Source: Gammaproteobacteria bacterium (GTDB lineage: Bacteria; Pseudomonadota; Gammaproteobacteria; HK1). Taken from it: DNA of 32,925 nucleotides. The stretch covers positions 1 through 32,925 of the forward strand of contig JAGTVB010000181.1 in assembly GCA_018224385.1 (NCBI GenBank). The letters run 5' to 3'. Under the pieces are notes generated by a model. That model was not told the origin of the DNA and made no database searches. It saw nothing but the letters and a program-made list of their open reading frames with translations. Positions 5,381 to 24,150 of this stretch are shown here, one piece after another. The position numbers were made by a program, and so were the translations under genes. How positions within the stretch are numbered: position 1 is the stretch's first letter; each line of letters begins with the position of its first letter.

Positions 5381-5437
5381 CGTTTGCCCGCCCTGCGCGT
5401 TACTCTGCCGGCGCGCGCGACATGATTGAAACGACTT

Positions 5438-5989
5438 CTAGGGATTCAGCGCGGCTTGCATGCGCGCCATTATTTGTCGGGCCGCTTCGCGCCGCATCTC
5501 TGAATAGATGACCTCCTCCTCACGGTTACTGCCGATAACCGCGTCCGGATCGAACACGAAATCACGCGCAAGGAAGATGGTCTGTGACGGCACCACGGCT
5601 TGTCCCTCCTTGCCCAGCACCTCAAGGGATGAGGTGTACGTCAGCTCGAATTCGCGGGCCTTGCCGGTTTTGGAATCCACCGCTAACAGCCGCCGGTCGA
5701 AGCGTTCGGCAGCGACGATGAGCGTGAGATCGGCATCCTCCCGGGTGGGAACGATGGACGTTTCACCTGCGGCTAACAACAGTTTGATTTCTTCAGCAAG
5801 CTCGGTGTTAGGCACTTGCAGGTGGATGGTATCGACGCCAACAGGTAGCAGCACGCTGCCGCGCAAATGAAATCCGCACCCTCCAAGGGCTAGCAGATGG
5901 AGCACCATCCAGCACCATACGGCAAGAGTGCGGCGCTGCTCAGGGAGGGCTTGTTGCGGACTGCCGATGGGTTTCGCGGTCATGATCAT
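5438..5989 (-). CDS. lptE: LPS-assembly lipoprotein LptE
   Basis: The 183-residue product has an N-terminal signal for lipoprotein export: a hydrophobic stretch (LAVWCWMVLHLLALGGC) ending in a lipobox with cysteine near residue 38. The sequence then reads GFHLRGSVLLP, the hallmark of LptE (formerly RlpB). LptE forms the plug inside the LptD beta-barrel at the outer membrane and helps insert lipopolysaccharide. It therefore belongs to the same pathway as lptABC at the other end of the window. Starts at 5989 and 5983 are both possible. The unusually long region before the hydrophobic core suggests that an internal start is not excluded. Confidence 0.9.
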   Translation of the reverse strand: MIMTAKPIGSPQQALPEQRRTLAVWCWMVLHLLALGGCGFHLRGSVLLPVGVDTIHLQVPNTELAEEIKLLLAAGETSIVPTREDADLTLIVAAERFDRRLLAVDSKTGKAREFELTYTSSLEVLGKEGQAVVPSQTIFLARDFVFDPDAVIGSNREEEVIYSEMRREAARQIMARMQAALNP

Positions 5990-11886: not shown

Positions 11887-12039
11887 CCTAAGAGCGTGTT
11901 TTAAAACCCCAGCGAGCGCAGGCAGAACAGGCGCACGCTGGCGAGGAACCGGAGTGTACCAGGGGAGTATATGAGGATGTCGAACCAGCGCGCAACGCAG
12001 GTATGGCCAGCGCACAAGGTTCTAAAACATGCTCTAAGG
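11887..12039 (-). repeat. Inverted-end intergenic repeat, copy 1
   Basis: The ends form an imperfect 22-base inverted repeat: CCTAAGAGCGTGTTTTAAAA reading in from the left, and the complement of TTCTAAAACATGCTCTAAGG on the right, with three mismatches over the arm. On the minus strand the 33-base core at 11927-11959 is closely similar to cores at 14922-14954 and 24048-24080. It is non-coding and lies about 95 bases upstream of the prk start. The size, inverted ends and intergenic placement resemble a MITE or a large REP-type element. No target-site duplication is obvious. Confidence 0.7.
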
Positions 12040-14260: not shown

Positions 14261-14758
14261 GTGGCCCGAATTCTTGGCATTGACCCGGGTTCGCGTGTCA
14301 CCGGTTACGGCATCATTGATTTTACCCGCAACCGAGCCGTGCATGTGGCCAGTGGCTGCATACCGGTTTGCGGTGCGGATCTCGCCGGGAAGCTGCGCGT
14401 GATCTATGAGGCCATCATTACCCTTGTCGAGCGGCATCAGCCGGTCGAGATGGTGGTGGAGCAGGTGTTCGTGCATAGAAATGCCGAATCGGCCTTGAAG
14501 CTTGGCCAAGCGCGGGGTGCGGCCGTGCTGGCGGGAGCCATGCGGACACTGCCCGTTTATGAGTATGCGCCTCGAGCGATTAAGCAAGCGATCACGGGTA
14601 CCGGCAGCGCGACCAAGGAACAGGTGCAGCACATGATCAAAGTCTTGCTGGGGCTTTCGCAATCACCCCCAGCGGATGCGGCTGATGCATTGGGGGTGGC
14701 ACTTTGCCATGCCCACATTGGGCAGACGCTGCGCCGGCGCGGCTTGACCCATCGGTAA
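14261..14758 (+). CDS. ruvC: Crossover junction endodeoxyribonuclease RuvC
   Basis: The product matches RuvC, which cuts Holliday junctions as a dimer. Its four acidic catalytic positions are visible: Asp in LGIDPGSRVTGYG near the N-terminus, Glu in VVEQVFVHRN, and two Asp in ADAADALGVALCH near the C-terminus. The start is uncertain. GTG at 14261 gives the family-like beginning VARILGIDPG but has no Shine-Dalgarno sequence. TTG at 14219 or GTG at 14228 would add 14 or 11 residues and lie close to an AGGG. It follows yebC. Repeat copy 2 separates it from ruvA, whereas these genes are often adjacent. Confidence 0.93.
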   Translation: MARILGIDPGSRVTGYGIIDFTRNRAVHVASGCIPVCGADLAGKLRVIYEAIITLVERHQPVEMVVEQVFVHRNAESALKLGQARGAAVLAGAMRTLPVYEYAPRAIKQAITGTGSATKEQVQHMIKVLLGLSQSPPADAADALGVALCHAHIGQTLRRRGLTHR

Positions 14759-14776
14759 GCCCCCGGTCGCTTCCAA

Positions 14777-14987
14777 GCTGTTTTAAAAACGACGGCGCTG
14801 GTCATGGCGGTGTTTCGCGGCGGCTCCGCACAAAATAACGGGGCGCCGTTTTGCACCGCTGCGAGCTGGCCCTGCCAGGGCGAGTTCTAGGACGGGGCGG
14901 GCCACCTTGTCTGTCCATCGTGCACACTCCGGTTGCTCGCTACCGTGCGCCTTGCTCTGCCAGCGCTCGTGGCGTTTTTGAAACAGC
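14777..14987 (+). repeat. Inverted-end intergenic repeat, copy 2 (long form)
   Basis: The first 15 bases (GCTGTTTTAAAAACG) and the complement of the last 15 differ at one position. Inside them lies a second pair, GCGCTGG and CCAGCGC. The core at 14922-14954 matches copies 1 and 3. This copy is about 65 bases longer than the others because of extra sequence around 14832-14915, which has its own small hairpins (AACGG/CCGTT at 14837-14850 and CCCTG/CAGGG at 14870-14880). It fills nearly the whole ruvC-ruvA gap. Confidence 0.75.
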
Positions 14988-15032
14988 CGTGTCCCCAGGA
15001 TAAGCCTGAAGTGCGTTCGAGAGCAGAATCTT

Positions 15033-15632
15033 ATGATTGGATGGCTACGCGGTGTCCTGCGGGAGAAGCAGCCGCCCTATCTCATCCTCGAAGTCAACGG
15101 CGTTGGCTATGAGCTTGAGGCACCGATGACGACTTTTTCCTTGTTACCGAGACTGGGTGAGGAACTCACGGTATTTACCCATCATCTGGTACGCGAGGAT
15201 ACGCAGAGCCTGTATGCCTTCACGCACCGTGGAGAACGCAATGTGTTTCGGCAGCTGCTGCGCGTCAGCGGCGTTGGCGCTAAGCTGGCGTTGGCGATTC
15301 TCTCGGGCATGAATGGGGACGAGTTGTCTCGCTGTGTGTACGAGCGTGACATCTCCCGGCTGGCGCAGTTACCTGGGATTGGAAAGAAAACGGCGGAACG
15401 GCTTGTCATTGAATTACGCGACCGCCTTCAGGCGCTGCCAGAGCTGCCGCCCAGCGAGCTGTTGGCGGGTGCCGAGGCGCAGCTCAAGCATGCCGAGGCG
15501 GAGGCGGTCAGTGCGTTGGTTGCCCTCGGCTTCAAGCCGCAGGATGCGGCCGGGCGCGTGCGGTTGGTGCGGGCAGATGGCCTCGCCTGCGAAGATTTGG
15601 TGCGCCGTGCGTTGAAGTCGTTGGCAAAATAG
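15033..15632 (+). CDS. ruvA: Holliday junction branch migration protein RuvA
   Basis: The 199-residue product has the full RuvA layout. The N-terminal OB-fold domain begins MIGWLRGVLREKQPPYLILE. A central helix-hairpin-helix pair is seen in FRQLLRVSGVGAKLALAIL and LPGIGKKTAERLVIELRD. The C-terminal domain, from about residue 155, contacts RuvB (ALVALGFKPQDA). RuvA tetramers bind four-way junctions and direct RuvB motors. The start has only a weak ribosome-binding site. A 105-base gap separates it from ruvB, in which I see nothing. Confidence 0.96.
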   Translation: MIGWLRGVLREKQPPYLILEVNGVGYELEAPMTTFSLLPRLGEELTVFTHHLVREDTQSLYAFTHRGERNVFRQLLRVSGVGAKLALAILSGMNGDELSRCVYERDISRLAQLPGIGKKTAERLVIELRDRLQALPELPPSELLAGAEAQLKHAEAEAVSALVALGFKPQDAAGRVRLVRADGLACEDLVRRALKSLAK

Positions 15633-23973: not shown

Positions 23974-24115
23974 GAAGCTTTTCAAAAAGCGACTGCGCTT
24001 ATCATGGCGGCGTCGCACGACGGCTCGCACTCCTGCTGTACTCCCGGGTACACTGCGGTTGCTTGCCGCCGTGCGCCTTGCAACTCCCGCGCTCGCGACA
24101 TTTGTAGCGCGCTTC
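23974..24115 (+). repeat. Inverted-end intergenic repeat, copy 3
   Basis: This 142-base copy has the same layout as copies 1 and 2. It has a GAAGC...GCTTC outer pair with diverged inner arms, a left part including TATCATGGCGGCGT (similar to GTCATGGCGGTGT in copy 2), the 33-base core at 24048-24080, and a right arm GCGCTCGCGAC comparable to copy 1. It fills most of the 202-base gap between queC and the quinone reductase gene, and no gene reads through it. Confidence 0.65.
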
Positions 24116-24150
24116 TAAAGAACTGATCTTAAACTAAGGAGGAAAGCGGT

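Follow-up and report, generated by a model that had tools for sequence, protein, structure and literature searches.

The usual picture of a MITE is that of a remnant of an IS element, specific to one genome, of which the ends are kept and the interior is arbitrary. Such an element usually originates through an internal deletion in its IS, and its interior then matches that of the partner. The Correia elements (CREE/NEMIS) of Neisseria carry the terminal inverted repeat (TIR) TATAGTGGATTAA and a TA duplication. MITEPsy1 of Pseudomonas syringae, a 100-bp element with the TIR GGAAGGTCTGAAAAAGCC, has been found to move in vivo; its TIRs resemble those of the IS5-family element ISPsy2, and its target duplications are CTAG or YTAA (PMC3189936). 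The Coxiella burnetii elements QMITE1 and QMITE2 are multicopy palindromic MITEs, some of them transcribed, with a size of 300-400 bp for QMITE1; QMITE2 carries a GTAG REP, and its duplications, 7-11 bp long, vary in sequence (PMC5896051). In the family described here, the usual relation between ends and interior is reversed: the ends are private to a lineage, and it is the interior, with its covarying fold, that shows conservation across phyla.

The window (the whole stretch analysed, 32,925 nucleotides) is contig 181 of a gammaproteobacterial draft genome of 3.8 Mb (390 contigs, 91% complete). Searches relied on a covariance model, R1, built from 20 full copies in the host (alignment A1), and on a core model, R2, built from 47 diverse core copies (alignment A2), whose E-values are rough. 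The following features were located in the window:

5388-5439, plus strand: degenerate right-half fragment, a fourth copy (profile match, E 3.4e-5)
11889-11891, unstranded: target duplication TAA, low-coordinate side of copy 1
11892-12034, minus strand: MITE copy 1, 143 bp, GAGCATG...CACGCTC (R1, E 1.9e-31; ends and duplication read directly)
11926-11999, minus strand: hairpin core of copy 1 (R2, 59.3 bits, rough E 3.2e-12)
12035-12037, unstranded: target duplication TAA, high-coordinate side of copy 1
14777-14987, plus strand: MITE copy 2, ends AAGCTGTTTTAAAAACG / CGTTTTTGAAACAGC intact and matching copies elsewhere (fold z -4.8)
14917-14987, plus strand: right half of the element in copy 2, including the 33-base core (profile match, E 2.5e-14)
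23974-24118, plus strand: MITE copy 3, ends eroded (R1, E 5.7e-24)
24009-24081, plus strand: hairpin core of copy 3 (R2, 58.9 bits, rough E 4e-12)

The preliminary description had recognized three related segments, and their similarity is well beyond chance: within the window, copies 1 and 2 are 82% identical over 62 nt (E 1e-11), copies 1 and 3 match at E 2e-7, and copies 2 and 3 match in two halves (E 2e-7 and E 3e-6). Copy 1 was correctly placed but runs exactly from 11892 to 12034, not from 11887 to 12039, and the bounds of copy 3 have likewise been moved, to those given above. The 33-base core that had been singled out is real but forms only the right half of a hairpin core of ~72 nt. A layout common to all three copies had also been proposed; this holds for the ends and the right-hand core, but in copy 2 ~70 bp of other palindromic sequence takes the place of much of the left core, which accounts for its greater length (both ends and the right half are kept), and copy 3, with its eroded ends, is flanked by GAC and TAA, the target duplication being lost. 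As described, all three copies are intergenic and occur in both orientations. According to Pfam assignments of the neighbouring genes, copy 1 is flanked by a divergent gene pair (PRK-family and AstE/AspA-domain), copy 2 by ruvC and ruvA, copy 3 by queC and a zinc dehydrogenase gene, and the fourth-copy fragment by lptE-like and holA-like genes. Copy 2 starts ~18 bp past the ruvC stop codon and separates ruvC from ruvA (14758-15033); read-through of the ruv genes could be influenced by the strong hairpin of this copy.

Further copies and a shared fold, on which the preliminary description had made its case depend, were both found in the host genome. With copy 2 as query, blastn gave 53 matches, and R1, for which 150 candidates were scored, gave at least 141 at E<=0.01, each of ~143 bp; the true copy number may be higher. 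Three host contigs (L010, L011 and L014) start within element copies, and the repeat probably breaks the assembly, with copies undercounted as a result. A typical copy is 143 bp long, with a left end of GAGCATGTTTTAAAAC or GAAGCTGTTTTAAAAA and a right end that is its reverse complement; the whole is imperfectly palindromic, and the profile gives full-length matches on both strands. The inverted ends noticed earlier are TIRs of 15-19 bp (GAAGCTG/GAGCATG-TTTTAAAA; GAGCATGTTTTAAAAC/GAGCGTGTTTTAAAAC are present in host copies), and the end motif TNAGARSMTGTTTTARAAM has 206 matches in the host genome versus 2 for the reversed control. When the 29 best copies that have both flanks were examined, 24 showed an exact 3-bp target duplication, against 7.6 expected with shuffled partners, and in these 24 copies the duplicated triplet is always TNA (TAA, TTA, TCA or TGA). 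Derivatives of 70-90 bp that keep both ends but have lost most or all of the core also occur (L217:1-70, L212:1-84 and L227:1-91). The TIRs, the TNA duplications, the absence of coding capacity, the presence of more than 100 copies in both orientations and the closely matching empty site of a sister type described below together support the classification of the host family as a MITE. The earlier suggestion of a MITE is thereby borne out, whereas its alternative, a large REP element, is at odds with the target duplications and TIRs of the host copies.

The interior of the element is a near-palindrome, and its ~72-nt core is much better conserved than the ends and has a far wider distribution. 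In alignment A2, for which the structure was written by hand and copies were filtered for arm pairing (a bias towards the outer arm), 96.8% of cells are paired; double changes occur in 154 cells, compared with 36.7 ± 5.4 after shuffling, one-sided changes number only 6, and the covariation signal is lost when partners are slid. When 110 cores were selected solely on the basis of their loops, 82% of pairs were Watson-Crick, versus 53-55% for shuffled and 32-43% for slid partners. The inner helix, to which the arm filter was not applied but parts of which are fixed by the search motif, is 100% paired, with 18 double changes. The unpaired or mismatched bases (GCGTT / TC / T / TCA // CTSC / TC / GCCTTG) are nearly invariant across phyla. 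Wobble pairs make up only ~1-3% of paired cells, with A.C and G.T mismatches both rare; an apparent ~2:1 excess in the raw counts (71 A.C versus 34 G.T) disappears once close relatives are clustered (22 versus 26), and the possibility, hinted at by the raw counts, that the complementary strand functions as RNA was rejected on this ground. Since covariation is almost exclusively of the Watson-Crick type and wobbles are equally rare on both strands, these alignments favour a palindrome that is kept as DNA, or required on both strands, over an RNA made from one strand, and the near-invariance of the mismatched bases between the arms favours recognition via these mismatches. Part of the arm covariation could nonetheless stem from neutral templated correction between the hairpin arms.

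Outside the host, R1 matched sequences in 7 of 37 relatives, in which the ends differ and the middle is the same. An exact pattern for this middle was found in at least 117 stretches of GTDB contigs; the matches listed include Pseudomonas, Halomonas, Nitrosomonadales, Chromobacterium, Formivibrio, Thioalkalivibrio, Rahnella and aphid symbionts, as well as Desulfobacterales, Desulfobulbaceae, Chlorobium and one Acidobacteriota MAG. Of 274 genomes sampled from the host's class, 119 had core matches with R2 (rough E<=0.001, strict filters); at a rough E<=1e-5, matches were obtained in 17 of 118 genomes in a sample of the phylum of Chlorobium and 6 of 118 in a sample of the phylum of a Desulfobulbaceae MAG. 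R2 is a search model that finds these elements, which would otherwise mostly be left without annotation, in more than 40% of sampled class genomes. Copies per genome reach 54 in Chlorobium ferrooxidans, 109 in a Desulfobacterales MAG and 117 in Fukatsuia. By contrast, the host's own end motif was present in 1 of 369 genomes, namely the host itself. The ends of sister elements include CAGGCTGTTGAAAA, GAACCTGTTCACGA, GAACCTATCTCAAA, GGGCACCTCTAAAA, CTGTGTCACAAAGC and AGAGGTGCTTGCAA; as several of these vary one IS5-like theme, GRnCYTGTTnnAAAA, and others do not, ends that were swapped and ends that changed gradually are indistinguishable. Detectable target repeats of sister elements are mostly TNA or CTAG. 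The host element had no match in plasmid records; sister types occur there in a few Pseudomonas, Halomonas and Fukatsuia records only, and none was found in the phages or in the E. coli searched.

The view of this family as new-looking stands in part. Rfam gave no match in the window, and at the cores of 17 loci no family was found, the only matches being an unrelated cobalamin riboswitch and a tRNA; no description of the core was found in open-access literature text (figures are not searchable). However, the core is common to several phyla under other ends and is not a local novelty.

Some genomes show unusual arrangements. In G736, from the Desulfobacterota sample, tandem units of ~356 bp, each with a core, are present in 3.0 and 3.9 copies (L365:1169-2245 and L365:10129-11510), with further cores elsewhere spaced ~350-390 bp apart, and the element seems to have been converted to satellite-like arrays. 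Two cores in opposite orientation lie ~160 bp apart in L156:2875-3181, and likewise on contig 4 of G190. For Candidatus Fukatsuia symbiotica (G449), an aphid symbiont, the 117 core matches are a high number for a reduced host-associated genome.

In Pseudomonas toyotomiensis, a 140-bp sister element with CAGGCTGTTGAAAA ends has CTAG on both sides, and in two other Pseudomonas species the flanks are joined without it (CGG-CTGATC-AGGCC versus CGG-CTAG-element-CTAG-CCTAGGCC); filled and empty sites differ by a few bases (CTGATC versus CTAG...CTAGCCT), so that the match is close but not letter-perfect. Plasmids of the P. syringae group yielded no clean empty site. In Chromobacterium aquaticum, sequence that encodes a C-terminal portion of an IS5-family transposase (L237 and L244, both incomplete because they stop at contig ends; NF033580, E 4e-22) has the end GAACCTGTTTACGATCT, preceded by TAA, and the same end is found on a local MITE (L105). 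A 417-bp transposase-less element with the same ends (L244:1061-1477) abuts the IS5-family copy in this species. Thioalkalivibrio denitrificans (L238) contains a fragmentary 790-bp IS5-family remnant (NF033581, E 4e-29) with ends AACAGGCCGTTGAAAA and CAGGCCGTTGAAAA, which are not identical to each other and are close to the local MITE end GCAGGCTGTTGAAA. The core is absent from the available IS sequence, that is, 790 bp of L238 and ~270 bp of L237/L244. These IS5 genes at matching ends support a putative trans-mobilization by IS5-family enzymes; we presume the subgroup to be IS1031/IS427-like. The host copies lie at the TNA target expected of an IS5-family mobilized element, a transposase having been seen for sister elements only. 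No transposase with the host's own ends was found among six DDE_Tnp_1 genes of the host genome (a 91% complete draft), and no IS with these ends in 20 host regions starting at single ends, which consist of degenerate ends or 70-90-bp derivatives. A search with the TIR pattern across the class matched the host only, and no partner could therefore be found by that route.

For the host copies, mobilization in trans by IS5-family transposases is the most likely mechanism. We propose, with a probability of roughly 0.75, that the family is a non-autonomous IS5-type MITE whose core acts as a folded DNA hairpin or cruciform that aids amplification, while its ends track the available transposases. An IS5-family transposase acting in trans would recognize the ends, excise the element and insert it at TNA; the core would work as a folded hairpin or cruciform in DNA, read through its mismatched bases, and may aid amplification of the element, for instance by holding the two ends close to each other or through a host protein that binds it; and the ends would change to suit whichever IS5-type transposase each lineage offers. 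That the same hairpin occurs in several phyla under quite different ends suggests that the interior is more important than the termini. A more far-reaching proposal, which we regard as tentative and rather doubtful, is that of one MITE lineage carrying a portable DNA hairpin across phyla and keeping it for its own amplification, while repeatedly swapping or evolving its ends to make use of the IS5-type transposase present in each host; the hairpin, in its folded form, would be read through its fixed mismatches by a putative protein of the host or the transposition complex.

Alternatively, the core may be a structured RNA (a cis-regulatory hairpin, an sRNA or an RNase III substrate) spread by the MITE. 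Predicted RNA folding is strong relative to shuffled controls (z -4.2 to -5.6 in three of four copies; copy 3, z -2.5), the raw wobbles lean to the complementary strand, and other MITEs are transcribed, with sRNAs arising from Coxiella QMITE1/2 (PMC5896051). Yet no Rfam family matches, the copies lie in both orientations, and the strand bias does not survive clustering. In RNA helices, G-U pairs are normally accommodated far more often than the few wobbles seen here, although the same pattern would arise if both strands had to function as RNA; on balance, we consider a structured RNA unlikely. Slightly less probable still is that the core is functionless, an ancient MITE lineage having kept its arms complementary by hairpin-templated mutation. 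Templated correction does yield Watson-Crick-only covariation without selection, but it would erase unpaired bases, which are in fact the most conserved positions, and it leaves the conservation across phyla amid differing ends unexplained.

The palindromic, intergenic character of the element and its conserved mismatches would also suit an element of REP/REPIN type that depends on a RAYT (Y1/HUH) transposase for its movement, and the outer stem of the core, GATGCGGCGTT...GCCTTGTC, recalls what we take to be the E. coli REP stem, a resemblance that serves as a lead only. TNA or CTAG duplications and IS5-type TIRs are, however, not products of HUH single-strand transposition, and REPs are not known to have target duplications or such TIRs, which makes this origin very improbable. 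An attC-like reading was rejected too: no attC-type GTTRRRY box follows the conserved GCGTT of the core, and the ends, being of IS5 type, do not resemble attC. If the core of our preferred IS5-type MITE, the folded DNA hairpin, is functional, parts of a MITE beyond its ends are under selection, a single element lineage can change transposases, and a concrete hairpin becomes available as bait for its reader protein.

Among known systems, Correia elements are similar in appearance, being MITEs of similar size and palindromic layout that are alike around TGTAC...CGGCTTC.TCGCCTTGTC, but the resemblance in layout is weak (10 of 500 shuffles were equally good) and the host copies have other ends, without the TIR and TA duplication of that family. 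Membership of the Correia family, suggested by this resemblance, was rejected, as R2 scored 7.0 bits (rough E 0.25) on a gonococcal locus (L367) versus 59 bits on the window copies. With REP/REPIN elements, the host family shares intergenic hairpins and a high copy number, and differs in its target duplications and IS5-like TIRs. QMITE1/2 are likewise multicopy palindromic MITEs of a gammaproteobacterium; compared by description, they differ in their variable duplications or larger size, with no shared core reported (PMC5896051). MITEPsy1, set apart by description in that its relatives are reported by overall similarity and with no cross-phylum core under unrelated ends (PMC3189936), is short, with IS5-like TIRs and CTAG/YTAA duplication, and provides a parallel to the host element at the level of transposition. 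Movement itself is ordinary for a MITE; what is new is the conserved core, with invariant mismatches, across phyla.
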